From the NCBI GenBank assembly GCA_905250025.1, contig CAJNOJ010000231.1, forward strand, positions 62,001 through 126,000: DNA of 64,000 nt, read 5' to 3'. The notes under the pieces are model-generated. The model ran no database searches, was not told the origin of the DNA, and saw only the letters and a program-made list of their open reading frames with translations. This DNA comes from Adineta ricciae. Lineage: Eukaryota; Rotifera; Eurotatoria; Adinetida; Adinetidae. Shown here piece after piece: positions 1 to 22,869 of the stretch. The first letter of the stretch is position 1, and every line of letters begins with the position of its first letter. Both the position numbers and the translations under genes were made by a program.

Positions 1-316
1 CGCATTAAACCACCACGTGCAGACGGTTCCAATTCTCTCCATAATGAATCACTACGAAAAGCTTCACGAGCAGCTTCAACTGCTTTGTTGATGTCTTCCT
101 ACGTTTCGAAACGAAAAAAAACAAACTTTTTTTAGGTCAAACAATTTGAATCTAACGAACTCTGGTGCCTTCTTCTACGCGACAAATCTCTTCACCTGTA
201 CTAGGATTGAAAACAGGAAATGTTTTACCATTTGTCGCTGTATGCCATTCATTATTAATAAATATTTGAGTATATTTGATCTCAATATTCGGCACTTTCA
301 CCGTAAATGATGACAT
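1..316 (-). CDS. Aldehyde dehydrogenase, N-terminal exons, copy alpha (partial)
   Basis: N-terminal part of an ALDH1/2-like NAD(P)-dependent aldehyde dehydrogenase; the rest lies left of the window. Exon 1 (316 to 161) starts [13 protein letters not shown] and contains the family's beta-hairpin segment [15 protein letters not shown] and the FNPSTGEEI motif. A 62-nt GT-AG intron (160-99) follows, and exon 2 (98 to 1) reads [14 protein letters not shown]. The sequence matches the complete gene at 5301-7510 almost base for base, so it is its second copy (allele or duplicate). It sits upstream, on the minus strand, of an orphan gene pair, just as the other copy does. Truncation is caused by the window edge. 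Confidence 0.85.
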
Positions 317-885
317 CTCTAATCAATAGTAATATAATTAGCTGAAGATATTTGAAACTTAAACGTAATTACCATATGATTACTTGTAAAGAATGTAGCC
401 GACAAGAGCTGAATCTTACCTTCAGAAAATATTAGTATATGTTTTTTTGTAAAGCAATGCTTTTATATCTATTTTGCGCACTAAACCAAACTCATGTTAT
501 CATGACATGGCTCTCTTATCATTTATTTTCTTTTGTCATACCCTGCACACCCTGGTATTCAACAAATAGAGCTCATCCACAGTATTTCGCAATTATCATA
601 CGTCTGGCATATTGAAAAGAATATGGCCTGAACGGTGATATAAATACAATAGATAATGTTTATCTACATGATTTGTTTGAATAAGGTGCTAATAGAAACG
701 TTTTTACAGGAAAAAGGACGAGGAGAGAGACGAGACGGGACAGAAAATTATTCGTTCTGGTGCGATCTCTGCTTCATACATGAATCTTGTGTAGAAAGGA
801 TTTATTAGCATATTCTCAATGTTGCGAAGCATATAATACAAACCAAAGCAAACCAACTAGATTTGAAAGAAAGTTCAATATTTAT
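317..885. other. 5' flank of ALDH copy alpha, no gene seen
   Basis: AT-rich flank that aligns to 7511-7830 for its first 320 bases or so. About 430 bases (roughly 635-1063) are absent from the other copy. I see no RNA gene or mobile-element signature here. Confidence 0.5.
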
Positions 886-889
886 TTTC

Positions 890-1480
890 AACATTGCCAG
901 ACATTGAACATGTTCGTTGGAGAACGCTGTTGATATTGTGTTATTGACTTTTGATATTCTTTTCTATAAGATTCTGATGGAATGACAAAAATAAGAAAAG
1001 TAATGAGTGGTGGAATAAATGAAATGAAACATCCATTAAGAAGTACTGATATATCTTGTGCTGAATTCGTACATTTTTGATAAATAGGATAGGATCAAAC
1101 GCGGTAATCCAAGAAGAAATAAAACCACAAGTGCAATTAATAATCGTCGAAGTTGTTTACGTAATTCATCTGAATGAAGTTGATTTTTTAATGTAATGGA
1201 TGAAAGAATATCGTTGATTATCCCAAAGATAAAAGAATAGAATTGTTGAACAAATGTTTCATTTACGAATTGATTAATTGAGGGGCAATGATGAAATGAA
1301 TCAATTCTTTGAATTATTTTTTTGTTAAAGGAATATAATTCGGTTGAAGAATACCTAAATAGAAGATCTTATTCAATGTTTCAATAAACGTTAAATGAAA
1401 TGGTTTTAACCAATAAATTCTGATTGGATTGGTTGCCTGAGATATTGTTGATTTTTCTAATGTTTTTCGCGCTAATTTGT
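890..1480 (-). pseudogene. Decayed 7TM receptor (GPCR-like) fragment, copy alpha
   Basis: Reading the minus strand from 1480 to 890 gives broken frames that resemble the end of a rotifer-type rhodopsin-family receptor. A basic stretch QLRRLLIALVVLFLLGLPR looks like a TM6. After a one-base frame change comes NGCFISFIPPLITFLIFVIP followed by SESYRKEYQ, which looks like TM7 plus the short cytoplasmic helix. Upstream (LARKTLEKSTISQ) I do not recognise the sequence. Stops and frame changes show it is not functional. The receptor assignment rests on hydrophobicity and the TM7-like ending only. Confidence 0.35.
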
Positions 1481-1488
1481 AGTCTATG

Positions 1489-1558
1489 CAAGGGGGAAAG
1501 TGAGACTTCAGACTTCAAATACTATCTGAAGTAGATGAAGTCGCACTTTTCCCCCTTG
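1489..1558. other. 70-nt hairpin, copy alpha
   Basis: The arms 1489-1510 and 1536-1558 pair over 21 base pairs with one bulge and one A.G mismatch. Inside, 1512-1517 and 1527-1532 form a nested 6-bp stem (ACTTCA/TGAAGT). The same hairpin occurs at 8136-8208 with a compensatory change. Size and shape are precursor-microRNA-like; expression is unknown. Confidence 0.5.
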
Positions 1559-2421
1559 GTTGAGTTTCAGCTCATGTTTGGCGCCATTGGCATTCTATTG
1601 TAATTCATACGACGTTCTTTTTTTTCAGCATGGAAAGGCAAAAGATTTCTGCATAATTGTAACGAATCGGAAAGATCTCATTTCAAACGAAGGCTCACAA
1701 TTATTGGTCGAATTCTAAAAATAACATTTCAGATTGGTATTAACCCTTCCGTTCCGAAGATATATATATATATATTCATATTGCTCTGCTTCACAGCGAG
1801 AAAGATATCTATCTTCTGAATGGAAACATCAAATAAACATTTATTGCCTAAATTATCTTTCGTTGTTAAGAGAATAGAAATGTATGAGATTGTATAATTC
1901 GTTTTTCTCTAATTTCACTCAATGAAATGTCTAATAAAGTAATCAGAAACAAAGAAGAGAAGTGAAACGTTTAATAAGCGGTATTATATACGCGAGCGGT
2001 AGGAGTGTCGATGGTAGTGCTAAACAGCGAATTATTTTCAGATTCAAAGTATCTATCTAAATATGAAAATACGGATATTTTGATGTAACCATAGTTGCTA
2101 TAACGTCGAAACTTGATATCACTCAACTTACTACGAGTTCTTTTGTGTACTTTCAATTGGGATAACTATGCGCCGAACATCACTATGACGAAATATATCG
2201 CAATATAAGTGTTCGCGGAACAGCGTTACGCTTATTTACTTTCGGTCTGTAATTGTATTTTCTTTTCAGTAATAAATAACAACTTAGAAGAAACTTTTAC
2301 GAATAAATCTTTCGTTTTATCTAACCACGAAATATTTTATGATTACAATCAATGCATATATTTAAGTACTGGAAACGATAAATGGTTGTTGTCGCAGAGA
2401 CTTTCATCTTTAACATTCAGA
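1559..2421. other. Flank and probable 5' UTR/promoter of orphan gene alpha
   Basis: AT-rich sequence, with an (AT)n run near 1760, aligning to 8212-8654 with indels. A pyrimidine-rich acceptor-like site (ttttcag near 2268) suggests a 5' UTR intron before the orphan gene. No other gene seen. Confidence 0.4.
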
Positions 2422-2982
2422 ATGAATGCAGAAAAGAATACGACTGCTGCACATACATCAACATCACGATCGAACTCTTGGGATCCTCTCGAGTACTGTA
2501 GGAAGCACAACTTTTCTGTACAAAGTACTCCACCACTTTCGATACGTCAATATGTCCGATCTACAATAAGAAATAGTCATGGCGATGAACCATGGAAACC
2601 AAGTGGCATTTACCACGCAAAAATTAACAATGGTGACAGAAACTCATCGAAAGCGTTGCCCCATCTCAAGCCTGAACCACGAAAAGAGCCACATCAAGAT
2701 TCACGAACTCCTTGGTTTACAGCGGGTATTCATCGTTATGTAAAATCAGCATCACTGGAAACGAAAGAAAAAGAACGTCAAAGATTGAAAGATATGAAAA
2801 ATAAACCTAAAAACAACACGCAACCACGAACTGTCGTGAAAGAGAGGATACCCTGGCGACCATCCGGTAACAGAATCTTTAAGCCAGTGCCCTATTTTGA
2901 TTGTCCAAGTCTCCGATGGTCAATGGAGGATGTGAAACGCTCAATGCCTGAGTTTCAAACAACATCAACCAAATCATCATGA
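2422..2982 (+). CDS. Orphan small basic protein, copy alpha (186 aa)
   Basis: Start chosen at the ATG at 2422 because that is where close similarity to the second copy (8655) begins; the frame is open further upstream but diverges. The protein is hydrophilic and basic, with no signal peptide or TM segment. It has repeated PW[KR]PSG/TPWFTAG-type modules: PWKPSG (about residue 53), TPWFTAG (about 95) and PWRPSG (about 145), and a conserved end (FDCPSLRWSMEDVKRSMPE). I cannot name the family. Short repeated PW-rich modules in a small basic protein recall microtubule-associated ciliary proteins, but that is only a guess. It carries a 49-residue segment missing from the other copy. Confidence 0.7.
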   Translation: MNAEKNTTAAHTSTSRSNSWDPLEYCRKHNFSVQSTPPLSIRQYVRSTIRNSHGDEPWKPSGIYHAKINNGDRNSSKALPHLKPEPRKEPHQDSRTPWFTAGIHRYVKSASLETKEKERQRLKDMKNKPKNNTQPRTVVKERIPWRPSGNRIFKPVPYFDCPSLRWSMEDVKRSMPEFQTTSTKSS

Positions 2983-3059
2983 AACTTATGGAATTTTATT
3001 CTCCTTTTTGCAGAAAATTGTAAAAAAACTGAAAAATAGAGTATATTTAAGGAGTATGA

Positions 3060-4164
3060 TTAGTGCCAGAATCTTGCCATATGTTCCTGATCATTCGTTC
3101 TAAATACACAAAACACGTTTCCAATAAAAAAGAAAGAAAAATTGTAAAAAAATCAATCCTACTTATAGCAACGACTTCCATAGCGACATTTTTCTTTCTT
3201 GAAATCATCGGGATGTGAATATGTTCTTAAATGATCGATGGTTTTACTAAAAACGCAAGAAAATAAATACGGGAAAGAGAAAGACTCGATGCTTACTCAT
3301 AACACGCTCTCCCATATCGACATTTCACTTTTTTCAAGAGATCTGGATCTATTTCTTCTGGATGAACATATTTATTTCGGTGCTCGGAATCGTGTCTTTA
3401 CGACGAATAAATATATAGTAAAGCTTTTCTTAGATAATCAATTACCTGAAGCAATCCGCTCCATAACGACATTTGAGTTTTTCATCCTGTTGATTACCAC
3501 CGCTCATACGATAATCTGAATCACCTGGATGTGCAAACTCTTTCCGATGATCACGTTCAAAACTTCAAAACAAAAGTACATTGACAACTAGTCTATATTT
3601 ATAATCACAATCCTACTTGTAGCATGCTCGACCGTATCTACACGGACGGCGTGCACCGACTATTCATAATGCATTGGTTTAGGATTTCGCACAATCAAAT
3701 AAGATACTTACAAACTGAAGTCAATATCGTTGATGCTGGCGGATTAGCTGCAGGATTGCGATGGCCAGATCGAGGAAGTTTACCTAGAAGAAAATCCTAA
3801 ATATCTTTCTAGATAAAGCTGTTAACAGAATCCTACTGAGTTCCTGTCGCAGATCGATTGGTACTTGCATAAAACATACATTGTCAACAGAACAGAAATG
3901 TTCATGGAATATTTTGATAATGATACTCAATGAAGGGTGTCCTTTCATTTGTAAATATGTTGATTTGGCGCTAGCACGCTCTTCTGGATCTTTTTTCAAT
4001 AAAAGTTCAATAATTGCCTTGTAGCCACCTTCACGTGGGACAATAATATCTCTTGCATGTGGACTATTACAGAAATTTTCATATTCGAATTCGTTCTTCC
4101 ATGGAAATCTCTCGAAAAACAAGACATAGAACATGACACCGGCTGCCCATGCATCGGATTTTTT
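3060..4164 (-). CDS. Kinase-PBZ protein, C-terminal part with four PBZ fingers, copy alpha
   Basis: Exons read on the minus strand: 4164-3837, 3783-3712, 3659-3617, 3562-3446, 3395-3297, 3246-3163 and 3099-3060. All six introns are GT-AG and all phases agree up to a TAA stop. The first exon is the end of a kinase domain (SDAWAAGVMFYVLFFERFPW). After a short linker come four zinc fingers of the PBZ type, each split by an intron right after CY: CRYGRACY..HRKEFAHP, CRYGADCF..HRNKYVHP, CRYGRACY..HLRTYSHP and CRYGSRCY..HMARFWH. PBZ fingers bind poly(ADP-ribose) in APLF and CHFR. The 5' part is cut by an N run; the last 221 bases before it reappear exactly at 10252-10472, so the kinase body there is the missing half. 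Confidence 0.85.
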
Positions 4165-4166
4165 NN
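4165..4166. other. Assembly gap (NN)
   Basis: Contig end. The left side (3944-4164) is identical to 10252-10472, not to anything on the right, so the right-hand neighbour here is probably wrong. Confidence 0.8.
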
Positions 4167-4427
4167 GTGACGGCTAAGAACATGAATTATGCCTCAGTCG
4201 GATTTGGATCCGTGTTGATGATCTCATCGCTGGTGCATATATTCTCGGCACGATTTTGGTTCAAAGGTCCACGTACGAATATTGGCTCGACGACTGAACT
4301 GGAATCTTCAACAAATTCAGAATGAAGCATGATTCTCTTTATCTTTCTATGTTTGTAGTTTGAAAGTATTTTATTTGGAAAGAATATATTCGAGTCATTA
4401 TACAATGCGTTGTGATAGATCAGTAAA

Positions 4428-5057
4428 TTAGTTGCCTGTTGATAAAGCACCTGCACCGATTCCGAAACCAACACCTTTGGGACCAAATAAACGCTGATAA
4501 CAATCTAAAACAATCGAAGAACGAAAGTAAAGATATCCGTAACGGAAGATATTTAATTTTTACTGTTATCGTAAAGATTGCCATCGTGTTCAGAAAAATT
4601 TGCACCATTGATACTCTTTTTGCAATGAGTACATCGATAGCATAATTTATGAAAAGACTATAAATAAAGTATCAGAATGGACTTGAATTTCCTATTAGAA
4701 TTGATTACTTGTCCAACCGCTTTGACTTCCTCAGCAAAATAAACAGGTTTATTACAACGTGGACAAATGTTACCTTTGGGTTTTGAACTCGAAGCAGATG
4801 CAGTAAGACCCATGATACCATTGGCTACTGTCTTATCAGGATTCTATTGAGAAGAGAAAATAATAGCACCGTTGCGTTCGACTGATTTGTCGGTACTCAC
4901 AGCAGCATCTGACAAGGCCTTGCTATTGCCAGCTGATTTCTCAGCCAGTGGTGTCTAGAAAACAGAATTAAGAGCATGTGCTTTTTGATTTATAGTGAGC
5001 TGTTTTCTTTCTAACTTGATCAACAAGGTTATTGAGGCCACGCGGAATCCACGCCAT
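4428..5057 (-). CDS. Small single-LIM-domain protein (CRIP/CRP-like, 133 aa)
   Basis: Five exons on the minus strand (5057-5016, 4954-4901, 4843-4709, 4657-4564, 4504-4428) with GT-AG introns give 402 nt including the stop. The N-terminal part (MAWIPRGLNNLVDQ and a Ser/Ala-rich linker) is unrecognised. Then comes one LIM domain: CPRC, FHKLC, CTHC and YDNNCY, followed by the FGPKGVGFG tail typical of cysteine-rich (CRIP/CRP) proteins. LIM domains bind two zinc ions and mediate protein contacts, often with the cytoskeleton. The seventh zinc ligand, normally Cys in YCxxCY, is Asp here. It lies downstream of ALDH on the same strand. I see only one copy in the window. Confidence 0.8.
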
Positions 5058-5300
5058 GGTCGACACGCAAAAAAGAAATCTACGATTATAGTAGAGAAAA
5101 ACAAGTATCTCAAAAAAACAACGAACGAGTGATTATAAATATGGTCTATTTATTCAAGATAAAACGTCTTTTATTTGATACTTTATGCAAAAGAAATTCG
5201 AGACACTAAACAAGAAAAGTGAATCATCAATGTAGGTGTACGCATCGCTGGCAATAATTATTGTCCCATTATTCATCATTTATTTCCCACAGAAAAATCT

Positions 5301-7510
<2,210 letters not shown>

Positions 7511-7834
7511 CTCTGATCAATAGTAATATATTAGCTGAAGATATTTGAAACTTCAACGTAATTATCATATGATTACTTGTGAAGAAGTAGCCGACAGGAG
7601 CTGGTGAATCGTACCTTCAGAAAATGATAGTATATATTTTTTGTAAAGCAATGCTTTTATATCTATTTTGCGCACCAAACCAAGCTCATGTTATCATGAC
7701 ATGGCTCTCTTATCATTTATTTTCTTTTGTCATAGCCTGCACACCCTGATATTCAACAAATAGAGCTCATCCACAGTACTTCGAAATTATCATACGTCAA
7801 GTAGATTGAAAAGAATATGACCTGAATTCGCACA
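7511..7834. other. 5' flank of ALDH copy beta, no gene seen
   Basis: Aligns to 317-640 with small differences; presumed promoter of the ALDH gene. Nothing else visible. Confidence 0.5.
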
Positions 7835-8130
7835 TTTTCGATAAATATGATAGAATCAAACGTGGTAATCCCAGAAGGAATAAAATCAATTGTTGAGCAA
7901 ATGTTTCATTTTACGAATTTATTAATTGAGGGGCAACGATGAAATCAATCGATTCTTTGAGTTATTTTTTGTTAAAGGAATATAATTTGGTTGAAGAATA
8001 CCTAAATAGAAGATCTCATTCAATGTTTCAATAAAAATGAAATGAAATGGTTTCGAGCAATAAATGCTGATTGAATTTGTTGCTTGAGATATTGATGATC
8101 TTTCTAATGTTTTAACAGCTGATTTTTAAT
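7835..8130 (-). pseudogene. Decayed 7TM receptor-like fragment, copy beta
   Basis: Shorter counterpart of the relic at 890-1480. The part corresponding to the alpha TM7-like segment is missing (junction near 7826-7830), and more indels are present. It lacks any usable frame. Confidence 0.3.
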
Positions 8131-8135
8131 CTATG

Positions 8136-8208
8136 CAAAGGGGCGGAAAGCGAATCTTCAGACTTCAAATACTATCTGAGGTAGATGAAGTCTCGCTTTC
8201 TCCCCTTG
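8136..8208. other. Hairpin, copy beta
   Basis: Counterpart of the hairpin at 1489-1558. The stem is kept although the arms differ: AAAGTG/CACTTT in alpha becomes AAAGCG/CGCTTT here, a paired T-A to C-G replacement. Bulge positions differ slightly. Confidence 0.5.
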
Positions 8209-8654
8209 GTTGAGCTTCATGTCATGTTTGGAACTATTGACATTCTATTATCACTCATACGATGTTCTTTTTTCTCAGCATGAAAAGGCAAAGGATTTCT
8301 GCATAATTGTAATGAATCGGAAAATACGGATATATCAATGTAACCATAGTTGTTAACATCGAAACTTGACATCACTTAACGTATTACCATCTAGTTCTTT
8401 TGTGTATTTTCAATCGGGATAACTATGCGACGAACATCACTATGATGAATATATCGAAAAAGGAGTGCTCGGGGAATAGCGTTACGCTTATTTACTTTCG
8501 GTCTGTAATTGTATTTTCTTTTCAGTAATAAATAACAACTTCGAAAAGATTTTTACGAATAAATCTTTCTCTTTATCTAACGACGACATATATTTAAGTA
8601 CTGGAAGCGATAAATGGTCGTTGCCGCAGAGATTTTTCACCTTTAACATTCAGA
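8209..8654. other. Flank/5' UTR of orphan gene beta
   Basis: Aligns to 1559-2421 with deletions, including the ttttcag acceptor-like site near 8520. No further gene seen. Confidence 0.4.
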
Positions 8655-9068
8655 ATGAATGGAGAGAAGAGTACGACTGCTGCACATACATCAACATCAC
8701 GACCGAATCCTTGGGATCCTCTGGAGTACTGTAGGAAGCACAACTTTTCTGTTCAAAGTACCCCGCCACTTTCGATACGTCAATATGTCCGATCTACAAT
8801 ACGAAATAATCATGGCAATGGACCATGGAAACCAACTGGCGTTTACCACGCAAACATTAACATCGATGACAGAAACTCATCGAAAGTATTGCCCGATCTC
8901 AAGCCTGAACCACGAACTGTCGTGAACAAGGGGACACCCTGGCGTCCATCCGGTCACAGAATCTTTAAGCCAGTGCCCTATTTCGATTGTCCAAGTCTCC
9001 GATGGTCAATGGAGGATGTGAAACGCTCAATGCCCGAGTTTCAAACAACATCAACCAAATCATCATGA
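8655..9068 (+). CDS. Orphan small basic protein, copy beta (137 aa)
   Basis: Second copy of the gene at 2422, starting MNGEKSTTAAHTSTS. It keeps the WDPLEYCRKHNFSV and FDCPSLRWSMEDVKRSMPE segments and the PW[KR]P modules. It lacks exactly 147 bp (49 codons) present in the alpha copy, so one of its modules (TPWFTAG) and a Lys-rich stretch are gone. The frame stays open. It lies tail to tail with the kinase-PBZ gene, as in alpha. Function unknown. Confidence 0.7.
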   Translation: MNGEKSTTAAHTSTSRPNPWDPLEYCRKHNFSVQSTPPLSIRQYVRSTIRNNHGNGPWKPTGVYHANINIDDRNSSKVLPDLKPEPRTVVNKGTPWRPSGHRIFKPVPYFDCPSLRWSMEDVKRSMPEFQTTSTKSS

Positions 9069-9150
9069 AACTTATGGAATTTTATTCTCCTTTTTGCAGA
9101 AAATTTTCAAAAAAAACTGAAATATAGCTGAGTATATATATGGAGTATGA

Positions 9151-10250
9151 TTAGTGCCAGAATCTCGCCATATGTTCCCGATCATTCGTTCTAAATACAC
9201 ATGTTTCCAATAAAAGAGAAGGAAAATCGTAAAAAAAAGCAATCGTACTTATAGCAACGAGTTCCGTAGCGACATTTTTCTTTGTGGAAGTCATCAGGAT
9301 GTGAATATGTCCTTAAATGATCGATTGTTTTACTAAAAACGCAAGAAAATCAATACGAGAAAGAGAAAGATTCGATGCTTACTCATAACACGCTCTTCCA
9401 TATCGACACTTCACTTTTTTCAACAGACCTGGATCTATTTCTTCTGGATGGACATATTTATTTCGGTGCTCGGAATCATGTCTTTGCGACGAATAAATAT
9501 ATTATAAAGCTTTTCTTCGATACTCAATTACCTGAAGCAATCCGCTCCATAACGACATTTGAGTTTTTCATCCTGTTGATTACTACCGCTCACACGGTAA
9601 TCTGAATCACCTGGATGTGCAAACTCTTTGCGGTGATCACGTTCAAAACTTCAAAATAAAAGTACATTTAAAACTAGTCTATATGTATAATCACAATCCT
9701 ACTTGTAGCATGCTCGACCGTATCTACACGGACGGCGTGCACCGACTATTCAGAATGCATTGATTTAGAACTTCGCACAATCAAAAACGATACTTACAAA
9801 CTGAAGTCAATATCGTTGATGCCGGCGGATTAGCTGCAGGATTGCGATGGGCAGATCGAGGAAGTTTACCTAGAAGAAAATTCTAAATATCCTTCTAGAT
9901 AAAGTTCATAACGGAATCCTACTGAGTTCCTGTCGCAGATCGATTGGCACTTGCATAAAACATACATTGTCAACAGAACAGAAATTTTCGTGAAATATTT
10001 TGATGATAATACTCAATGATGGGTGTCCCTTCATTTGTAAATACGTTGATTTGGCGCTAGCACGCTCTTCTGGATCTTTTTTCAATAAAAGTTCAATAAT
10101 TGCCTTGTAGCCACCTTCACGTGGGACAATAATATCTCTTGCATGTGGACTATTACAGAAATTTTCGTATTCGAATTCGTTCTTCCATGGAAATCTCTCG
10201 AAAAACAAGACATAGAACATGACACCGGCTGCCCATGCATCGGATTTTTT
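9151..10250 (-). CDS. Kinase-PBZ protein, C-terminal part, copy beta
   Basis: Counterpart of 3060-4164 with the same exon structure. It holds the end of the kinase domain, then a 54-nt-class intron beginning GTAGGATT, the linker and four PBZ fingers (CRYGRACY, CRYGADCF, CRYGRACY, CRYGTRCY with their His pairs HRKEFAH, HRNKYVH, HLRTYSH, HMARFWH), ending at a TAA at 9151-9153. All fingers are intact, with only conservative substitutions relative to alpha (for example SRCY to TRCY). Keeping the zinc ligands in both copies supports a working protein. The kinase body of this copy is missing from the window, apart from a short N-terminal piece at 11412-11497. Confidence 0.85.
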
Positions 10251-10251
10251 N
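10251..10251. other. Assembly gap (N)
   Basis: The 221 bases on the right (10252-10472) repeat the sequence on the left (10030-10250) with differences, but match 3944-4164 exactly. An open reading frame runs through by chance and contains a spurious internal repeat. Confidence 0.8.
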
Positions 10252-11276
10252 TTCATTTGTAAATATGTTGATTTGGCGCTAGCACGCTCTTCTGGATCTT
10301 TTTTCAATAAAAGTTCAATAATTGCCTTGTAGCCACCTTCACGTGGGACAATAATATCTCTTGCATGTGGACTATTACAGAAATTTTCATATTCGAATTC
10401 GTTCTTCCATGGAAATCTCTCGAAAAACAAGACATAGAACATGACACCGGCTGCCCATGCATCGGATTTTTTATGCAAATGTCGAGCCATAACATTGTTC
10501 GAATCACGACGTAGAAATTCTGGTGAAGCAAAATAAACTGTATAAGCTTTATTAGCGTCGACAGTGATCAGTGCACATCTAGTATTCATTTTTTCTACCG
10601 TACCAAAATCAATTAGCTTGACATGGAAATGTTGACGCGGACTTTGAACAATGACCAGATTTTGTGGTTTAATATCACCGTGAATAATATTGAGTTTCTC
10701 GAGAAAGATCAATGCGCGAAGGACGTGAACAATAATGACAATACCAAACATAAATTTTTGTTGTGGTTCTCTGTGAGCAGCATTATTAAACCAAAAGGTT
10801 AACAGATCAGTTGCCGCTAATTCCATCGCAATAAAAATACTCTCTTTCGTAAATTTACAACCATAATAGTCAATGACAGGATGACTATCAATGGCAATGC
10901 TTTTAATTAAGCGTAGAAAGTGAATTTCACTTTGGATTTCTTCTTGAACGCCAGCAGTATTCTTCATAATTTTTACAGCCACTACACGATTACGTTTTCG
11001 ATCTTGTGCTTTGTAAACCTGTCCAAAACCACCTCGATTAATGAATTGTGTTATTTCATAATGTACACCATCGATTTCGATATGTTTTATATCATTTTGG
11101 TCGCCTAAATTCGGCTTGATTGGGTTCTTTTGAAAATTCAACAGCTTGCCCATTTGTTCAATGCTCGCTTCGTAATGTTTCTTGTTGTTACCATGATCTC
11201 TTGCAAAATTCTTTGCATGTTGAGCATTATGTATCATTACAGAATCATGTTGATGATCTGAAGGCGCTGCTCCCAT
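10252..11276 (-). CDS. Protein kinase body of the kinase-PBZ protein (path alpha)
   Basis: Start at the ATG at 11276 (MGAAPSDHQ). I prefer it to the in-frame ATG upstream because MGxxxS is an N-myristoylation signal and the same start is conserved in three copies. Kinase landmarks: glycine loop GGFGQV (82-87), VAVK lysine (102), HGDIKPQN catalytic loop (199-206), DFG (223-225) and SPE in place of APE (251-253). Lys, catalytic Asp and DFG Asp are present, so it is probably active. The usual HRD is HGD, making it a non-RD kinase. It lacks the C-terminal end here; that part lies at 3060-4164, joined by a 221-bp exact overlap. The combined model is 528 aa. I cannot place the kinase subfamily. Confidence 0.85.
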
Positions 11277-11401
11277 AGTCGACTTGCTTTTCCAACAAAA
11301 ATTGATCGATAAGGAATAAAACACACGTGTGTAAATATGAAATATTACTCAAGTGAGAAGGTATTTCGCAAGAGAACGGCGACGTCGTTTGAAACTTTTT
11401 T

Positions 11402-11411
11402 NNNNNNNNNN
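11402..11411. other. Assembly gap (10 N)
   Basis: Sequence 11191-11401 is repeated with differences from 11412 on. In contrast 11223-11401 is identical to 14477-14655, so the true right neighbour of this contig is probably 14656. Confidence 0.8.
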
Positions 11412-11497
11412 CCATGATCTCTTGCAAAATTCTTTGCATGTTGAGCATTATGTATCATTACAGAATCATGTTGATGATCTGAAGGCGCTGCTCCCAT
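11412..11497 (-). CDS. N-terminus of the kinase-PBZ protein, copy beta fragment
   Basis: Encodes the first 28 or so residues (MGAAPSDHQHDSVM...), identical in protein to the start at 11276, with the start codon at 11497. It is cut by the gap on its downstream side. It probably belongs to the beta gene whose end is at 9151-10250. Confidence 0.8.
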
Positions 11498-11985
11498 AGT
11501 CGACTTGCTTTTCCAACAAAAATTGATCGATAAGGAATAAAACACACGTGTGTAAATATGAAATTTTACTCAAGTGAGAGTGTATTTCGCAAGAGAACGG
11601 CAACGTCGTTTGAAAACTTTTTCTTCCTCACAGCACTTGCTCCGTTTTACTCGCGGAAGAAAAAAAGTGCACAAACGCAAGACGTCATGTTTGACGCCGT
11701 TGAAAGTAATATGCTGCATGTTCTTCTATCAGTGATACATATTTTGTTCTGCCGTTTTGTAACACTTTGTATGCCTATTACAGACAAATGTCAGTAGTTC
11801 GATGAATGTTTTTCTGCTCGGTTTCACGGAGTACGTAAAAATGATGTTTTTCAGTGGCCATTGAAACAGTTGTTTGTGCAGCATATTTATTATACACATG
11901 TCCAAGACGGTGTGTTTTGATGTAATTGTATCTCTAGTACAAATCAAATTGAGCATATGAATGATTTAACCTGTGCAGAATATTT
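11498..11985. other. Flank between kinase gene and deiodinase relic, copy beta
   Basis: Aligns to 14531-15000. Presumed promoter of the kinase gene on the minus strand. No further gene seen. Confidence 0.4.
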
Positions 11986-11989
11986 ATGG

Positions 11990-12290
11990 TTGAGTTTGCG
12001 GGAGAAGCTGTTGTACTCAAGAAAAATAAACGTCTGATCACGATGTATCTAATACGGCTATGACAACTAATTCGCCGCCGTAGATTACGTAGAAACAGAA
12101 CGGTCATGATCTGTATGTGAGATTGAATATGTTTTCCAGGATGTATTGTTGACCATGAGCAAGTCGTCGTTGGTTGATCGACGCACAAAATCGTTTTACC
12201 GGCTGGCCATTGGTCACGAGCGTGTGCCTCATTGATGTAAATGACCATAAAAACACGCTTCATTCGTTCGGCAGACGCCTGAAACTATGG
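11990..12290 (-). pseudogene. Deiodinase-like (thioredoxin-fold) relic, copy beta
   Basis: On the minus strand, from the ATG at 12263, the frame reads VFMVIYINEAHARDQWPAGK. This fits the iodothyronine deiodinase family signature FLxVYIxEAHxxDxW. After the following DQP the frame must change to continue as INQRRLAHGQQYI, which resembles the family's later helix. The frame change, and the absence of a recognisable active-site segment upstream, indicate decay. An upstream exon may end near 12358. The deiodinase link rests on one strong motif. Confidence 0.4.
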
Positions 12291-12404
12291 TCAGCTGGTC
12301 GATGAGAACTTTCGAGAATAGATTTACATCACATGTATGCATTCACCTTGGTGAGTTTCCGACGAGGAAGCGACCAGACAAAGTGAGGTTGAATTGAACT
12401 TCCG

Positions 12405-12640
12405 TAATAATAGCTTCATCTTTATGGTATACACCGATAAGTTCTTAAATTGGTTCAGATAATCGAAGACGTGTTTCGTAAGCGATCAGTTTTCGAATCG
12501 TTTCGATGAATCGCAATTCATTGAATTCTTTAATTGTTTCAAAGTCCATATGGTCAGAAGTACGAAAAAACATTAAACATCGAGCCCTTGAGAACAGTTC
12601 GTCTAAATCAACACCATTAGGTCGGGCGATTTGGTAAAGA
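12405..12640 (-). pseudogene. Unrecognised coding relic, copy beta
   Basis: The minus strand reads LDELFSRARCLMFFRTSDH and DFETIKEFNELRFIETIRKL, then a stop. It is counterpart to 15640-15880, where the stop is absent but no start is clear. Both are too similar to be non-coding drift, yet I do not recognise the domain. It may be an N-terminal exon of the deiodinase-like gene or a separate gene. Confidence 0.35.
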
Positions 12641-12649
12641 TGGAGGAAG

Positions 12650-13265
12650 ATAGAAGGAGGATTTGAACCAGAAGTCTTCTTGCGGTGTCAGTCATTATCT
12701 CATTATTTCATTCTACAGAACATGATGATAGAAAGAATACTAGCTCGCAAAAACAATGATAAAATAGGTGAACAGTCGTTCAGAGCTAGACTAATCTACG
12801 GATGGATTTGTATAAAGCCAATCGTTACTGTCTGCGCAAACAATATTCATTACACTTGAACGGCAATATTCTAGTCTATCATCGAACGGATATCCAGCAT
12901 ACTTGACAACTAGCGTGTAATTTCGACTACTTTCTCTATATCGTATCGCTTAACTACACATGAAGATATCTTTTCTCTAAGTATATAAATCGACGCGATT
13001 GTCTTATACGGCCATATAGTGCAATCGTTAACATCTATCCGTACAAAATGTGCTGTATTGCACAGTGCTCTTGATCACAAGATCATTAGAAAGCATTTCA
13101 AACTATCGTTTGCCTTTATTAGATTCCTTCTACTAGAGGTAGACATAACTACGATTAACATTTACCAATAATGAATAGTGCAGAGAACTATTAAATGTTA
13201 TAAGAAAATGTACTCTATGTTAGTATCTAACAAGAACAATGTCCTTCCAGTGGCCAAGCAATGAC
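12650..13265. other. Spacer downstream of CAP gene, copy beta
   Basis: AT-rich; aligns to 15910-16689, with about 70-80 bases more in the alpha copy. Nothing recognisable. Confidence 0.4.
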
Positions 13266-14174
13266 TCAACATAATGGTGGTACATTTGCTTCGAAATCAC
13301 CTTCCATATTGCCTCCGGGAAAGTAGTTGGCAACAACATACAGCCGGTTACTGTTTGATACAGCTCGACCAATACCCACATTCGTTGTCGCTTTCCAAAT
13401 CAATTGAGTAAAATGTCCAGTTGCCATTGAAAATCCCGGTTTGTTCCAGTTGTAGTCAGCAATTTCATTGTACCAAGATGTAACGGGTGCGTCACCTTTA
13501 TGCTTATAAGAAGAAAAATATGGAACTATCCAACTAAAACTACGCTAAAAGTTACCTGTGCTCGTCAAGACAGAACCCGATGAACTGTACATGTAAAGAT
13601 TTTCTCCCATCCATTGTCCATTGAATGTATTACCACTGTGCGCGAATGTATCAGTCGCAGCTAGTTTTTCCGCGTATTGTTGTGCGATGTCGTTTAATTG
13701 TGGATCCAATTGAAGTGACGGTACGCAATGTTTACTTCGATATTCGTTGTGTTTATCTAAAGCTTGTTGTCGGTATGTGCTGAGTGGCACTTCTTCATCT
13801 CCTAGAAACAATAAAACAAAATGTGAGAGAAAGAACTGAAAATTCTTGAATAAGCGCTGACAAGGCGGTATCTAAGCATCGAAAACAATTTCACGTTGTC
13901 ACTACGGTTTCGGGCTAAGTGTGCAACATTAGCTTTCATTCACATACTGATTCTTCATGCTTATATCGATGAAAAGTCTAACTAATGGTTATTTACTTTT
14001 GTTTGTCAGGAAACGAGCCGAACCACGTCTTCCATATTGGAATCGGTACTGACGTATGAGTTTTCGAAGACCTTGTTTTAGTTGGCGTTCATCAGAATCA
14101 TCAACAACATATCCAGCAACATAGAGTGCCGACAGACAAAGTGCGATCAATGTAACAACGAATTGTTTTTGCAT
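13266..14174 (-). CDS. CAP/SCP secreted protein, copy beta
   Basis: Three exons. Exon 1 from 14174 gives a signal peptide (MQKQFVVTLIALCLSALYVAG) and a basic propeptide-like stretch. Exon 2 begins with DEEVPLSTYRQQALDKHN and carries the CAP core HNEYRSKHCVPSL, the cavity His in FAHSGNTF, and GENLYMY. Exon 3, spliced at AAAG|GTGACG, has WYNEIADYNW, the signature GHFTQLIWKATTNVGIG and VVANYFPGGN, ending at 13266. The family (GAPR-1/PR-1/SCP) is secreted and binds lipids or sterols. Putative cavity residues (two His, two Glu) appear present. About 210 aa. A nearly identical gene lies at 16690-17623. Confidence 0.9.
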
Positions 14175-14391
14175 TCTAAAGAAAATATATAATTCAGATG
14201 TGACAAACTAGTAAATATGTCGATTGACATTTACCTGTCGTGAATGAGAAAGTGAATAGGCACATGTAGTATACAGAATTGAGTATATATAGGATTGATT
14301 TTGGCTGCTAATTATTCATGTGGAAAAGCGTGAGTGATGAAGACAGAACACCACCAACCTGTCTTCTTTTCTTTTCTAATTTAAAATACTA

Positions 14392-14433
14392 GTAACGCTC
14401 GTCGAGGCAGACTCGCTATATACCCTCGACTGA
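14392..14433. repeat. Short interspersed repeat, copy 1
   Basis: About 42 bases, taacgctcgtcgaggcagactcgct and ending ccctcgactga, with GTCGAGG and CCTCGAC facing each other as a short stem. The same unit occurs at 27141-27182. The flanking sequence no longer matches the CAP copy at 17840, so an element end may lie here. Confidence 0.45.
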
Positions 14434-14475
14434 ACCACTGACTGAAACTACAATAGTCTTATATGCGTTTTATGC

Positions 14476-14476: not shown

Positions 14477-14530
14477 AGCATTATGTATCATTACAGAATC
14501 ATGTTGATGATCTGAAGGCGCTGCTCCCAT
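14477..14530 (-). CDS. N-terminus of kinase-PBZ protein (repeat of 11223-11276)
   Basis: Eighteen codons (MGAAPSDHQ...), identical to the start at 11276 and probably the same DNA seen twice as a contig overlap rather than another gene. Confidence 0.75.
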
Positions 14531-14999
14531 AGTCGACTTGCTTTTCCAACAAAAATTGATCGATAAGGAATAAAACACACGTGTGTAAATATGAAATATT
14601 ACTCAAGTGAGAAGGTATTTCGCAAGAGAACGGCGACGTCGTTTGAAACTTTTTTCTTCCTCAGAGCACTTGCTCCATTTTACTCACGGAAGAAAAAAGT
14701 GCACAAACATGATGCGTCATGTTTGACGCCGTTGAAAGTAATATGCTGCATGTTCTTCTATCAGTGATACATATTTTGTTCTGCCGTTTTGTAACACTTT
14801 GCATGCCTATTACAAGCAAATGTCAGTAGTTCGATGAATATTTTTCTGCTCGGTTTCACGGACTACGTGAAAATGATGTTTTTCAGCAACCATTGAAACA
14901 GTTGTTTGTGCAGCATATTTGTTATGCACATGTCCAAGGCGGTGTGTTTTGATGTAATTGCATCTCTAGTACAAATCAAATTGAGCATATGAATGATTT
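14531..14999. other. Flank between kinase gene and deiodinase relic, copy alpha
   Basis: Aligns to 11498-11985. No gene seen; presumed kinase promoter region. Confidence 0.4.
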
Positions 15000-15395
15000 A
15001 ACCTGTGCGGAATATTTATGGTTGAGTTTGCGGGAGAAGCTGCTGTACTCAAGAAAAATAAACGTCTGATCACGCTTGAGATAGTATTGAAGACAAATGA
15101 AAGAAATTTATCTTCCAAGTGCGTATTCACCTTACTGACTTGGTATAGTTCACCATCATCATCAATTACATGTTTGATAATCCAATCTGAAAACTACAAT
15201 GAAGACGATGAAATATTTAAAAAGATCAATGTTAACAAACACGAGCACTTCGAATCTTACGTCATGGATGTATTGTTGATCATGAGCAAGTCGTCGTTGG
15301 TTGATCGACGCACAAAATCGTTTTACTGGCTGGTCATTGGTCACGAGCGTGTGCCTCAGCGATGTAAATGACTAGAAAAACATGTTTCATTCGTT
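15000..15395 (-). pseudogene. Deiodinase-like relic, copy alpha
   Basis: Minus-strand frame MKHVFLVIYIAEAHARDQ ends at a TGA exactly where the beta copy has the family's Trp codon (TGG). Beyond it, another frame gives INQRRLAHDQQYIHDVRF. After a possible intron acceptor (TTGTAG) comes WIIKHVIDDDGELYQ, which could be the family's C-terminal strand. A TGA could in principle encode selenocysteine, but the position is that of Trp and not of the active site, so decay is more likely. The opposite-strand frame at 15018-15371 is a shadow. Confidence 0.4.
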
Positions 15396-15639
15396 CGGCA
15401 GACATTCACCTTGGTGAGTTTCCGACGAAGAAGCGACCAAACAAAGTGGGGTTGAATTTCAAATGGTCTCATTATAAAAAAAAGAGCTCTTTCACTGCTG
15501 ACGCTTCTGAAAAAACGGCAGACAGCAGCGTACAACTCATTCACATCATGATATCGAAGATGTTCTACAACATGCTGCTGAATAATGTTGAGAATGCAGT
15601 TAGAATATTCAAAAAGAAGTTCTCAAACTTCTGAATGAA

Positions 15640-15880
15640 TTGAACTTATGTATAGTAAAAACTTCATCTTTCTGATATACATCGATAAGTTCTTGAATTG
15701 GTTCAGATAAACGAAGATGTGTTTCGTAAGCAATCATTTCTCTAATCGTTTTGATGGATCGCAATTCATTGAATTCTTTAATAGTTTCAAAGTCCATATA
15801 TTCAGAAGTACGAAAAAGCATAAAATATCGAGCCCTTGAGAACAGTTCGTCTGAATCAACACTATTAGGTCCAGGAGTTT
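15640..15880 (-). pseudogene. Unrecognised coding relic, copy alpha
   Basis: Minus-strand open stretch SDELFSRARYFMLFRTSEYM then DFETIKEFNELRSIKTIREM and LSEPIQELIDVYQKDE. No clear start. Charged and helical in look. Counterpart of 12405-12640, which has a stop after SEPI. Family unknown. Confidence 0.35.
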
Positions 15881-15910
15881 GATAAAGATGGAGAAAGATA
15901 ATTAGAAGGC

Positions 15911-16689
15911 GAATTTGCAGCAGAAGTCTACTCGTACACCTCCGGGAAAATATTCTTGGATTCTTTCTGATTGATCTTGAAAGTGTCAGTCATTATCTCG
16001 TTATTTCATTTTACAGAACATGAAGATAGAAAGAATACTAGCTCATAAAAACAATGTTGAAATATGTGAACAGTCGTTCAGAGCTAGAATAATCTTATAC
16101 AGATGAATTTGTATAAAGCCAATGGTTACTGTCGATAAATTATATATCACTTCTAGTCGTTGCTGTTAGTTAACGACATTAGAGAAATATTCTGGGCAAA
16201 CAATATCCACTACACTTGAACGTCAATATTCTAGTCTATAATCGAACGGATATCTAGCATACTTTACAACTATAGCATGTAGTTTCGATTACTTTCTCTA
16301 TATCGTATCGCTTAACTACACATTCATTATTCACTATGTCGGTAAATTTAAAGTTGAATTCTATAGTAGCTGAAGTCATTCATACCCATATCTTTTCTCT
16401 AAGTATATAAATCGACGCGATTATCTTATACGGCCATGTATAGTACAATCGTTAACATCTATCCGTACAAAACGTGCTGTATTGCACAGTGCTCTTGATT
16501 ACAAGATCATTAGAAAACATTTCAAACTATTGTTTGCCTTTATTAGATTCATTCTAGTAGGGGTAGACATAACTACGATTATCATTTACTAATAATGAAT
16601 AGTGCAGAGAACTATTAAATGTTATAAGAAAATGTACTCTATGTTAGTATCCAACAAGAACAATGTCCTTCCAGTGGCCAAGCAATGAC
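15911..16689. other. Spacer downstream of CAP gene, copy alpha
   Basis: AT-rich and aligned to 12650-13265. It holds about 70-80 bases (near 16130-16200 and 16320-16380) absent in beta. Nothing recognisable. Confidence 0.4.
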
Positions 16690-17623
16690 TCAACATAATG
16701 GTGGTACATTTGCTTCGAAATCACCTTCCATATTGCCTCCGGGAAAGTAGTTGGCAACAACATACAGCTGGTTACTGTTTGATACAGCTCGACCAATACC
16801 CACATTCGTTGTCGCTTTCCAAATTAATTGAGTAAAATGTCCAGTTGCCATTGAAAATCCCGGTTTGTTCCAGTTGTAGTCAGCAATTTCATTGTACCAA
16901 GATGTAACGGGTGCGTCACCTTCATGCATATAAGAAGAAAAACATGGAACTATCCAATTAAAACTATGTTAAAAATTACCTGTGCCTGTCAAGACGGAAC
17001 CCGATGAGCCGTACATGTAAAGATTTTCTCCCATCCATTGTCCATTGAATGTATTACCACTGTGCGCAAATGTATCGGTCGCAGCTAGTTTTTCTGCGTA
17101 TTGTTGTGCGATGTCGTTTAATTGCGGGTCCAATTGAAGTGACGGTACGCAATGTTTACTTCGATATTCGTTGTGTTTATCTAAAGCTTGTTGTCGGTAT
17201 GTGCTGAGTGGCACTTCTTCATCTCCTAGAAACCATAACACAAAATGTGAGAGATCGAACTGAAAATTCTTGAATAAGCTGACAAGGTTGGCATCTAAGC
17301 AGTGAAAACAATTTCACTTTGTCGCTACGCCTTCGGGCTAAGTGTGCAATCCAATATCTATCGAATGAAGTGCAACATTAGCTTCCATTCACATACTGAT
17401 TTTTCATGCTTATATCAATGAAAAGTCTAACTAATGGCTATTTACTTTTGTTTGTCAGGAAACGAGCCGAACCACGTCGTCCGTATTGGAATCGGTATTG
17501 ACGTATGAGTTTTCGAAGATCTTGTTTAAATCGACGCTCATCAGAATCATCAACAACATATCCAGCAACATAGAGTGCCGACAGACAAAGTGCAATCAAT
17601 GTAACAACGAATTGTTTTTGCAT
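16690..17623 (-). CDS. CAP/SCP secreted protein, copy alpha
   Basis: Same three-exon structure as 13266-14174: signal peptide from 17623, CAP exon (HNEYRSKHCVPSL, FAHSGNTF, GENLYMY) and last exon with GHFTQLIWKATTNVGIG, ending at 16690. Differences are few: DERQLKQG to DERRFKQD in the propeptide, YSSSGSVLTSTG to YGSSGSVLTGTG, and RAVSNSNRL to RAVSNSNQL near the end. The first intron is about 25 bases longer. It is intact and presumably secreted. Confidence 0.9.
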
Positions 17624-18518
17624 TCTACAGAAAATACATAATTCAGATGTGAGAAACTAGTAAATGTGTCGATTGACACTTACCTGTCGTGAATAAGAAA
17701 GTGAATAGGCACATGTAGTATACAGAATTGAGTATATATAGGATTGATTTTGGCTGCTAATTATTCATGTGGAAAAGCGTGAGTGGTGAAGGTAGAGCAC
17801 CACCAACCTATCTTCTTTTCTTTTCTAATTTAAAATATAACAGTAATTGAATGATCACCGAAATATTTGTGAGTGGCGGTAAAAGACACAGGCTTGCTTC
17901 TTATCATAAAAAAATATCAAATTAAGCATCTCACTGATGTCTACCACTAAGCGTGACTATTTAAGACAAGAAATGCATCGCGATAATCGATGATATACAT
18001 ATATATCTACTTTCATTTCGAATTATTCTTATAGTTAAAAGATGAGTAGATAATATGATATTATTTTCACTGTGTTTTGAATGGATATTTGACATACATC
18101 AATATTTTTCATTTGAGAAAAACCAAATTCGGTGGATTTTATCGCATGACTATTATTTATTTACTTGATTGAAATTGCGTATAATTCGATACAATGGGTG
18201 TGACAGAAAAGTGCGTTGTTTTCAAATCTCGTGGGTCAGTTTAACATTTTCGAGTAATTGCACGAGGTAAAATAGTGTCCGACATCATTTTGTGAAAGCA
18301 ACACATCATCTAACTAGATCATCTATCAGCTTTCAAAACTAGTTATGCTATGAACAGCAGATAACTTTCAAAATTCACTCGATTTCTTTATTTGAAATAT
18401 TACGTTAATTATAGATCGTGTTTATCGACAGAGAATAATTTTTTCAGAACTATTTTCATTGGATAGACTCCGGGATACTTGCTATCTGATTAGACGAGCA
18501 AAGCAATTTGACTTATTA
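17624..18518. other. CAP promoter and non-coding spacer
   Basis: The first 200 bases match the upstream region of the beta CAP gene; the rest is AT-rich with only weak similarity to 18950-19250. No gene seen. Confidence 0.4.
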
Positions 18519-21167: not shown

Positions 21168-21543
21168 TGTATTCAGGAAAAAGTAGATAAATAGTGAAAG
21201 GTAATTTAAAACACGTGCGTCATTCTCGTCGCAACGTTGTTAAAATCAAACATTCGGTAGTGTAAACAAATTTTGTCGTGTATCCACGTCATCATCAATC
21301 ATCGATAGCAGAAAATGAAAAACAAAACGACAAAGTCTAATATTACTCATACACACTGTTTTCAAAAAGAATGTAGACTAAAAAAGATTCGTGAGAGCTC
21401 ACATTTTACATTCAAGTTACTCTGTAGAGAATACAAAATGATAAGACAATAATATTAACAACGTGGTGACAGCAAGATATCAGTCACTTTCTTTTGTTTC
21501 ATTTTGTCAGTGAGAAAGTTTCATTTTCTATTGAGATAGAACT
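21168..21543. promoter_or_regulatory. Divergent promoter region
   Basis: About 375 bases between two genes that point away from each other. No specific factor site recognised. Confidence 0.4.
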
Positions 21544-22869
21544 ATGGATATTTACGATGTGATTATTATCGGGTGTGGTTCAGCCGGTATTGGCGCTGGG
21601 ATCGAGTTCGAAAAGATGACATCCAAAAGTATCAATTATTTAATTTTAGAAGCACGAAATCGAATTGGTGGAAGAGCATATACTGATATAACAACATTCG
21701 GCAAGGATATTCCGCTCGACCATGGTGCGCATTATATTTGTCATCATGAAGAAAATAATTTTCTACGGCAATTCTATGTTCCATCTGAAAAGGACTTTGT
21801 CGAATCTGATTATTACGATAATTCAACAATGATTATATACGATCAACACGGAGCTATAATCGAAGATGAACTGATCAATAAAGCAACAAAGTGTGCGGAT
21901 GATTTACTAGCAGCTGCCGAAGAATATCCTAATGAAGCCCTTGACGTATCCGTGTTTGATTTAGTCAATACTCAATTAGAAGCGATCTCCGACTCACGAT
22001 TGAAATCACTGGTGAAGACGAATTTGAGTTATATTGAATGTCATGAAGCTTCAGATATGAAACAATTATCCAGTAAACTATATGGTAAAGGTGAAGGTGA
22101 TCTACCCGAATCGGATCTAACGATTACTGACGGTTTGGGTACACTAGTTCAACATATCGCTTCAAAATATAATCTGCCGATAAAACTAAATTCCATTGTT
22201 ACAGATATCGACGCATCCAACGACATAGTTCGCGTAACTACAAAAAACAATGAATTCTATCTATGTCGGTATGTTCTTCTGACAGTTCCGCTTGGTTGTT
22301 TAAAATCAAATTCAATTTCGATTAAACCTTCACTACCAACTTGGAAGAAAGATGCAATTGATCGAATGGGTTTTGGCTTGTTAAATAAAGTCTACGTTCA
22401 ATTTTCTGAACTCTTCTGGGATGCGACATTACGACGGATAACCATCGTCGAAGATGAATCGCAATTCTACTATTGTTTACCTGAATATCGAATGTTAGCA
22501 TTGTTTATTTCAGGCTCGATGGCTAGACGATTTGAGCAGAAAACAGACGAACAAATTGTCCGCGAAGTATTTCATTCACTTCAACGAATTTATCCAAAAT
22601 TGACGTATCCTGTTAAATGGCTCATTACACGTTGGGGATCCGATCCATTCTCCCAAGGTTCATATTCGAGTTTTCATCTTGGTAGTGATCTTAACACGGT
22701 CAAAGACCTATCTCGCGAAACACACGATGGTCGTATCTGCTGGGCTGGTGAACATACGAACTATAACGGATGTATCGGTTATGTTGATAGTGGATTTGAG
22801 AGTGGTATGCGGGAAGGAAAGCGATTGTTAGATTCATTTTTTGGTAAAGACAATGTTTTGACTTCGTAA
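21544..22869 (+). CDS. Flavin-containing amine oxidase (polyamine/monoamine oxidase type)
   Basis: Single open frame of 441 aa. It starts with the FAD Rossmann motif VIIIGCGSAGIGAG (residues 6-19), followed by LEARNRIGGRAYT (about 38-50), the hallmark of the amine-oxidase family. The C-terminal FAD contact WAGEHTNYNGCIGYVDSG is at about 400. The length is near that of polyamine oxidases. The enzymes oxidise amines with O2, giving an aldehyde, ammonia or amine, and H2O2. No signal peptide or TM helix is seen, so probably cytosolic or peroxisomal. It has no intron while neighbouring genes do, which fits acquisition from a microbe or retroposition. Substrate cannot be read from the sequence. Confidence 0.88.
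   Translation: MDIYDVIIIGCGSAGIGAGIEFEKMTSKSINYLILEARNRIGGRAYTDITTFGKDIPLDHGAHYICHHEENNFLRQFYVPSEKDFVESDYYDNSTMIIYDQHGAIIEDELINKATKCADDLLAAAEEYPNEALDVSVFDLVNTQLEAISDSRLKSLVKTNLSYIECHEASDMKQLSSKLYGKGEGDLPESDLTITDGLGTLVQHIASKYNLPIKLNSIVTDIDASNDIVRVTTKNNEFYLCRYVLLTVPLGCLKSNSISIKPSLPTWKKDAIDRMGFGLLNKVYVQFSELFWDATLRRITIVEDESQFYYCLPEYRMLALFISGSMARRFEQKTDEQIVREVFHSLQRIYPKLTYPVKWLITRWGSDPFSQGSYSSFHLGSDLNTVKDLSRETHDGRICWAGEHTNYNGCIGYVDSGFESGMREGKRLLDSFFGKDNVLTS

Follow-up and report, generated by a model that had tools for sequence, protein, structure and literature searches.

Is there an animal protein kinase that reads poly(ADP-ribose) (PAR), the chain that cells build at broken DNA, with zinc fingers of its own? 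The question is raised by a locus of the bdelloid rotifer Adineta ricciae, at which a kinase gene on the minus strand appears to continue, through a series of introns, into four PBZ (poly(ADP-ribose)-binding) zinc fingers. The locus lies in C231:62001-126000, the whole 64,000-nucleotide stretch analysed here and called the window; C followed by a number denotes a contig of the genome, which comprises 130 Mb in 1033 contigs. Judged from its sequence, the kinase plus four-PBZ architecture belongs to a real gene, and two diverged paralogues within this one bdelloid have retained it. Its best explanation, to which we give about even chances of being right, is a Ser/Thr-type kinase with a four-PBZ C-terminus that would be recruited by PAR.

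Gene model, paralogue and kinase domain

The predicted protein has 528 residues; it starts at 11276 (MGAAPS) and, when spliced through one of two alternative downstream paths (arm A; the other is arm B), ends at 3060. The whole kinase domain sits in a single exon (exon 1) and is followed by six GT-AG introns of 53, 52, 54, 50, 50 and 63 nucleotides in arm A, with phases 1, 1, 2, 2, 2 and 2. The choice of splice sites was manual and guided by the finger motif; in an unguided control, all GT-AG introns of 40-80 nucleotides were tried in the region behind the kinase. This control returned exactly four distinct split fingers each for arm A, arm B and a paralogue on C81, versus none in dinucleotide shuffles (200 per sequence, 600 in total). 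In Pfam searches with the spliced protein, the kinase domain (Pkinase, PF00069) was found at 1.9e-35 (123 bits, cut-off 31.7) and PBZ/zf-CCHH (PF10283) at 1.7e-21 in four stretches. Splice modelling, unguided search and Pfam agree on the six introns leading into four fingers, as the initial annotation had proposed. The exons are:

10252-11276, minus strand: exon 1, from the start codon to residue 341, with MGAAPS and the kinase (GGFGQV, VAVK, HGDIKPQN, DFG, SPEF)
3837-4164, minus strand: end of exon 1, arm A; 3944-4164 is an exact repeat of 10252-10472
3712-3783, minus strand: exon 2, arm A, linker (splice modelling)
3617-3659, minus strand: exon 3, arm A, first half of finger 1 (CRYGRACY) (splice modelling and unguided search)
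3446-3562, minus strand: exon 4, arm A, second half of finger 1 and first half of finger 2 (splice modelling and unguided search)
3297-3395, minus strand: exon 5, arm A, second half of finger 2 and first half of finger 3 (splice modelling and unguided search)
3163-3246, minus strand: exon 6, arm A, second half of finger 3 and first half of finger 4 (splice modelling and unguided search)
3060-3099, minus strand: exon 7, arm A, second half of finger 4 and stop (splice modelling and unguided search)
9923-10250, minus strand: end of exon 1, arm B (splice modelling and alignment of the arms)
9798-9869, minus strand: exon 2, arm B (splice modelling)
9703-9745, minus strand: exon 3, arm B, first half of finger 1 (splice modelling and unguided search)
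9532-9648, minus strand: exon 4, arm B, fingers 1/2 (splice modelling and unguided search)
9383-9481, minus strand: exon 5, arm B, fingers 2/3 (splice modelling and unguided search)
9249-9332, minus strand: exon 6, arm B, fingers 3/4 (splice modelling and unguided search)
9151-9190, minus strand: exon 7, arm B, end of finger 4 and stop (splice modelling and unguided search)

The best support for this predicted architecture is independent and comes from outside the window: the best paralogue in the genome, at C81:95.3-97.1 kb, likewise has a kinase followed by four fingers and six GT-AG introns with the same phases. Identity between the two proteins is 53% in the kinase exon and 51% across the full length; synonymous sites are saturated between the two genes, over kinase and fingers alike. 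Two observations on the surrounding genes bear on whether the paralogues are an ohnologue pair: the neighbouring open reading frame (ORF) 2422-2982 has its best non-allelic match at C81:140286 (42%), 43 kb from the C81 kinase, and the gene beside the C81 kinase (about C81:93.1-94.9 kb) matches, among the tblastx matches listed, ORFs at window 51-57 kb with 28-46% identity, which by eye look like common repeat-type proteins. The absence of a match on C81 for the neighbour at 21541-22869 counts against such a pair, as does a blastn comparison of C81:90001-100000 with the window, which returned the kinase gene only.

All catalytic motifs are present (the GGFGQV glycine loop, the lysine of VAVK, HGDIKPQN, DFG, and SPEF with its APE-type glutamate), which bears out the complete kinase core described before; GGFG, VA-K, HGDIKPQN, DFG and SPE are common to both paralogues. 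With HGD in its catalytic loop, the enzyme is presumably of the non-RD type. It belongs to no clear family: HIPK2/3, TTK and TNIK lead the best 60 of 228 PDB matches to a profile built from the two paralogues, with 75.5 bits for HIPK2, 73.6 for TTK and 73.5 for TNIK, against 56.9 for Chk1. No FHA domain was matched by Pfam in the spliced protein up to E 1. Folding of the kinase exon (window 10254-11276) without an alignment was uninformative (mean pLDDT, the predicted local distance difference test, 36.6).

A horizontal origin of the kinase is unsupported by three scans: two short peptide patterns matched 519 stretches of a prokaryote genome collection, with one confirmed, a remote generic kinase of 23% identity; in viral contigs, two short peptide patterns matched 24 stretches, with none confirmed; and NCBIfam gave only generic kinase scores, far under the cut-offs (10 families). 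Patterns of two peptides leave room for a transfer.

Two probable haplotype arms of one locus

The locus had been described as one contiguous gene from 11276 to 3060. This is not the case: the scaffold carries an assembly repeat as well as N gaps at 10251 and 4165-4166, and the gene runs from 11276 to 10252 and then either from 3943 to 3060 (arm A) or from 10029 to 9151 (arm B). The gaps are:

10251: N gap at the junction of arm B and the shared kinase contig, with 221 nucleotides repeated on both sides
4165-4166: N gap between the end of arm A and the start of arm B
11402-11411: N gap; the kinase start and its 5' flank are repeated behind it as 11412-11622, at 97%

The stretch 10252-10472 is identical to 3944-4164 (221 nucleotides, 100%) and 99% identical to 10030-10250; with this exact repeat beside the N gaps, the 480-residue ORF 9906-11348 holds an assembly repeat of about 74 residues. 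Window 4167-10250 matches C231:58978-62000 together with window 1-4164, in three blocks of 92-94% and two of 86-87% identity, with parts unaligned. The left N of the arm pair is at C231:58974, and the arm ends overlap across the N gaps, on the left over 218 nucleotides at 98.6% and on the right over 221 nucleotides at 100 and 99%. Most likely, the two 'copies' are haplotype arms of one gene that the assembly has placed end to end; the N gaps at which the repeats stop make a true tandem duplication less likely. The finger pattern is intact in both arms, as first noted, but as probable haplotypes they are not independent copies and thus weaker evidence than had been claimed.

The finger part evolves under purifying selection between the arms: there are 15 synonymous changes at 94 sites and 8 nonsynonymous changes at 359 sites, a ratio of nonsynonymous to synonymous rates (dN/dS) of 0.126 (Fisher p 2.4e-6). 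Of the kinase exon, both arms contain the end only (about 109 codons); its dN/dS is 0.024. Exons are 94.5% identical between the arms (531/562) and introns 87.9% (283/322; Fisher p 7e-4); the 3' flank is at 93.0% (226/243), so that the contrast between exons and non-coding DNA is not uniform.

Two further features were observed around the arms. A second likely pair of haplotype arms, 11412-14475 and 14477-17837, stands end to end across an N, with aligned blocks 86-95% alike; each carries a CAP/SCP-like ORF (13545-13871 and 16969-17313; named by eye). Beside the kinase in arm B lies an aldehyde-dehydrogenase-like gene (5300-7530, minus strand; named by eye), whose first exons recur in arm A at the start of the window (1-340).

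The finger array and its possible function

All four fingers are of the CCHH type and each is cut at one place, by a phase-2 intron two residues past the second Cys. This part of the initial annotation stands; the uniform spacing does not, as fingers 1-3 are Cx5Cx6Hx5H and finger 4 is Cx5Cx7Hx5H. Scored singly with Pfam, fingers 1-4 reach 29.2, 33.5, 37.1 and 24.6 bits, all above the cut-off of 22.7. Since the four introns are alike in phase and place, the intervening exons (117, 99 and 84 nucleotides) form symmetric 2-2 units, a structure consistent with an array that may have grown by duplication of exons. An exact DNA pattern of the half finger plus splice donor has 10 sites in the 130 Mb genome versus 3 for a reversed-pattern control; eight of the 10 are the four fingers in the two arms, one is finger 3 of the paralogue and one is on C214. 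Zinc ligands are kept in 8/8 fingers of the two paralogues; the first Tyr of the PAR pocket is kept in 7/8, the eighth having Phe. Fingers 1-2 align with both PBZ fingers of human APLF plus the linker between them, including HPGDSDY (E 4.5e-11). In a phmmer search of a hand-made set of eight segments, they matched best one APLF-like gene and a PARG-like array on C99 (both named by eye).

PBZ fingers bind PAR, and a tandem does so with roughly 1000-fold higher affinity than one finger alone (PMC4030884, PMC6264785). Bdelloid ligase E/K carries PBZ behind its catalytic core and has a one-finger and a two-finger form (PMC6264785, PMC10665377). The A. ricciae genome has this published signature: a ligase OB domain adjoins one PBZ on C28 and two PBZ on C78 and on C392. 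A PARG with PBZ repeats has been published for A. vaga (PMC4245714); here, a microbial-type PARG protein has PBZ-like fingers that reach 21.4 bits, just below the cut-off. HPF1 occurs with an N-terminal PBZ (L049:3751-4539 on C110; PF10228 1.6e-24, PF10283 3.4e-10). The whole genome has 34 PBZ matches, a count that misses intron-split fingers, and 125 PARP-catalytic matches, counted exon-wise, so that the number of PARP genes is below 125. The bdelloid setting invoked for the kinase is well founded. In A. vaga, 17 PARP genes are over-expressed after radiation (PMC10809525), and the species is reported to be without the H2AX route (PMC10665377).

Several other loci of the genome combine such domains. 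L065 (C84) is, by sequence likeness, a second HPF1 with an N-terminal PBZ. L060:2024-7399 (C365) encodes a long protein that combines a PARG domain of microbial type (1.1e-22) with numerous PBZ-like fingers, the majority of which have diverged too far for Pfam to recognise, and L059, L063 and L067 (C99) look by eye like long PARG-type proteins with PBZ-like fingers. At C357:65070-65711, a PBZ finger lies just ahead of a PARP-catalytic match on the same strand, perhaps a PBZ-PARP gene.

If the kinase is recruited by PAR, its fingers, most likely finger 2 with the others helping as in the APLF tandem, would bind the polymer. The bound kinase would gather at active PARPs, either where DNA is broken by drying or radiation or at other PARP sites, and would phosphorylate neighbouring proteins there. 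With a non-RD HGD loop, local concentration rather than phosphorylation of the activation loop may be the main control. A more specific version, which we regard as rather doubtful, is that bdelloids have a PAR-reading pathway of their own. In it, a non-RD kinase that can be anchored by lipid, and whose four-finger PAR-reading tail predates the split of the paralogues, would connect the enlarged PARP system with phosphorylation signalling when the animals have been dried or irradiated, and would in part stand in for the H2AX route.

Several features of the fingers and the N-terminus weigh against recruitment by PAR to broken DNA. In APLF, the pocket Arg (R387/R429) contacts PAR phosphates (PMC6264785); with the numbering of that paper, and with fingers 3-4 matched by position only, this position is N, R, D and K in fingers 1-4, leaving Arg in finger 2 only (1/4), while the first Tyr is kept in 4/4 fingers and the second position is aromatic in 4/4 (F in finger 2). 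In the C81 paralogue, the Arg position is R, R, N and K (Arg in 2/4), the first Tyr is kept in 3/4 and the second position is aromatic in 2/4, with Tyr replaced by T in fingers 1 and 4; in finger 4, the Gly of CxYG is also replaced by N, and this finger, at 11.1 bits, is under the Pfam cut-off that the other three pass. Finger 2 of the paralogue reaches 46.3 bits and keeps the basic pair RK, and finger 2 appears to be the best candidate for PAR binding in both paralogues. The N-terminus is MGAAPS here and MGGKSS in the paralogue, M1, G2 and S6 being invariant in the pair; both fit MGxxxS/T, which we take to be the myristoylation consensus, and this suggests membranes rather than chromatin. The initial annotation had seen in it a kinase tethered to membranes until needed: the myristoylation-type end recurs in the paralogue, which speaks for it as a genuine feature, but the tethering gains no support.

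A role at the membrane or in the cytosol competes seriously with this reading, since both N-termini fit N-myristoylation. The protein would then be a myristoylated membrane kinase that reads cytosolic PAR or ADP-ribosylated proteins from an enlarged PARP family and acts in stress or immune signalling, not at breaks. The 125 exon-wise PARP-catalytic matches (nuclear and other PARPs unsorted) count in favour of this, but the PBZ proteins studied act mainly in the DNA damage response or in mitosis (PMC4245714, PMC4030884) and we consider such a role improbable, if to be taken seriously. The losses in the pocket, Arg in 3/4 fingers here and 2/4 in the paralogue, together with the second Tyr in two fingers of the latter, would also be expected of fingers that are PBZ by descent but have given up strong PAR binding and now form a zinc-held structural tail or one that binds RNA or protein, and PBZ fingers are structurally nearest to RNA-binding C3H1 fingers (PMC4030884). 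This is unlikely given the complete zinc ligands, the nearly invariant first Tyr, the high-scoring finger 2 of the paralogue with its RK pair and the low dN/dS of the finger part. Finally, that the kinase stops soon past exon 1, leaving the finger exons as a relic or as a gene of their own, as might be read from the misjoined scaffold and from the stop that both arms and the paralogue meet shortly past the kinase when left unspliced, is very improbable in view of introns, phases and an open splice alike in three sequences (one of them diverged by about half), the four fingers per sequence in the unguided search, the purifying selection on the finger part and, though the 3' flank tempers it, the higher identity of exons than introns. 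Recruitment of the kinase by PAR is the likeliest of these readings.

Comparison with known systems

The initial annotation knew of no animal kinase of this make-up. Among the titles and starts of abstracts listed in the literature searched (with subscription papers mostly outside this scope), none dealt with a PBZ-fingered kinase of animals; kinase plus PBZ has, however, already been reported in Dictyostelium, whose Chk2 carries a PBZ domain (PMC5087659, PMC4030884), and the novelty is thus narrower than claimed. Both proteins join a protein kinase and PBZ in one chain. The rotifer protein differs in having no FHA match, in its four fingers and in being of animal origin; Dictyostelium Chk2 was compared by description only, and Chk2 is absent from the best 60 PDB matches to the rotifer kinase profile.

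APLF resembles the rotifer protein in its finger tandem and linker, which fingers 1-2 cover in alignment. Unlike APLF, the rotifer protein has a kinase domain, no FHA domain was found in it and the RKNP segment is eroded. The genome's own APLF-like genes (named by eye, with a search pattern able to find unsplit fingers only) have unsplit fingers, whereas those of the kinase are intron-split. Bdelloid ligase E/K is a further parallel, with PBZ joined to an enzyme in the same lineage and one or two fingers after the core, but it is a ligase of bacterial origin and not a kinase (PMC6264785, PMC10665377). Bdelloids come through massive DNA breakage alive, and the response to it includes some PBZ proteins already known from them (ligase E, APLF).

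Mammalian CHK1 and PLK1 are likewise kinases steered by PAR, but they bind it by other means, CHK1 through a PbR motif and PLK1 by direct binding, with PBZ fingers mentioned for neither in the available portion of the source (PMC8287952). A kinase with a PBZ array would instead link PAR directly to phosphorylation through a dedicated PAR-reading domain. The rotifer kinase with its predicted four-PBZ tail appears to be a hitherto undescribed animal form of a type already known, the kinase joined to PBZ.

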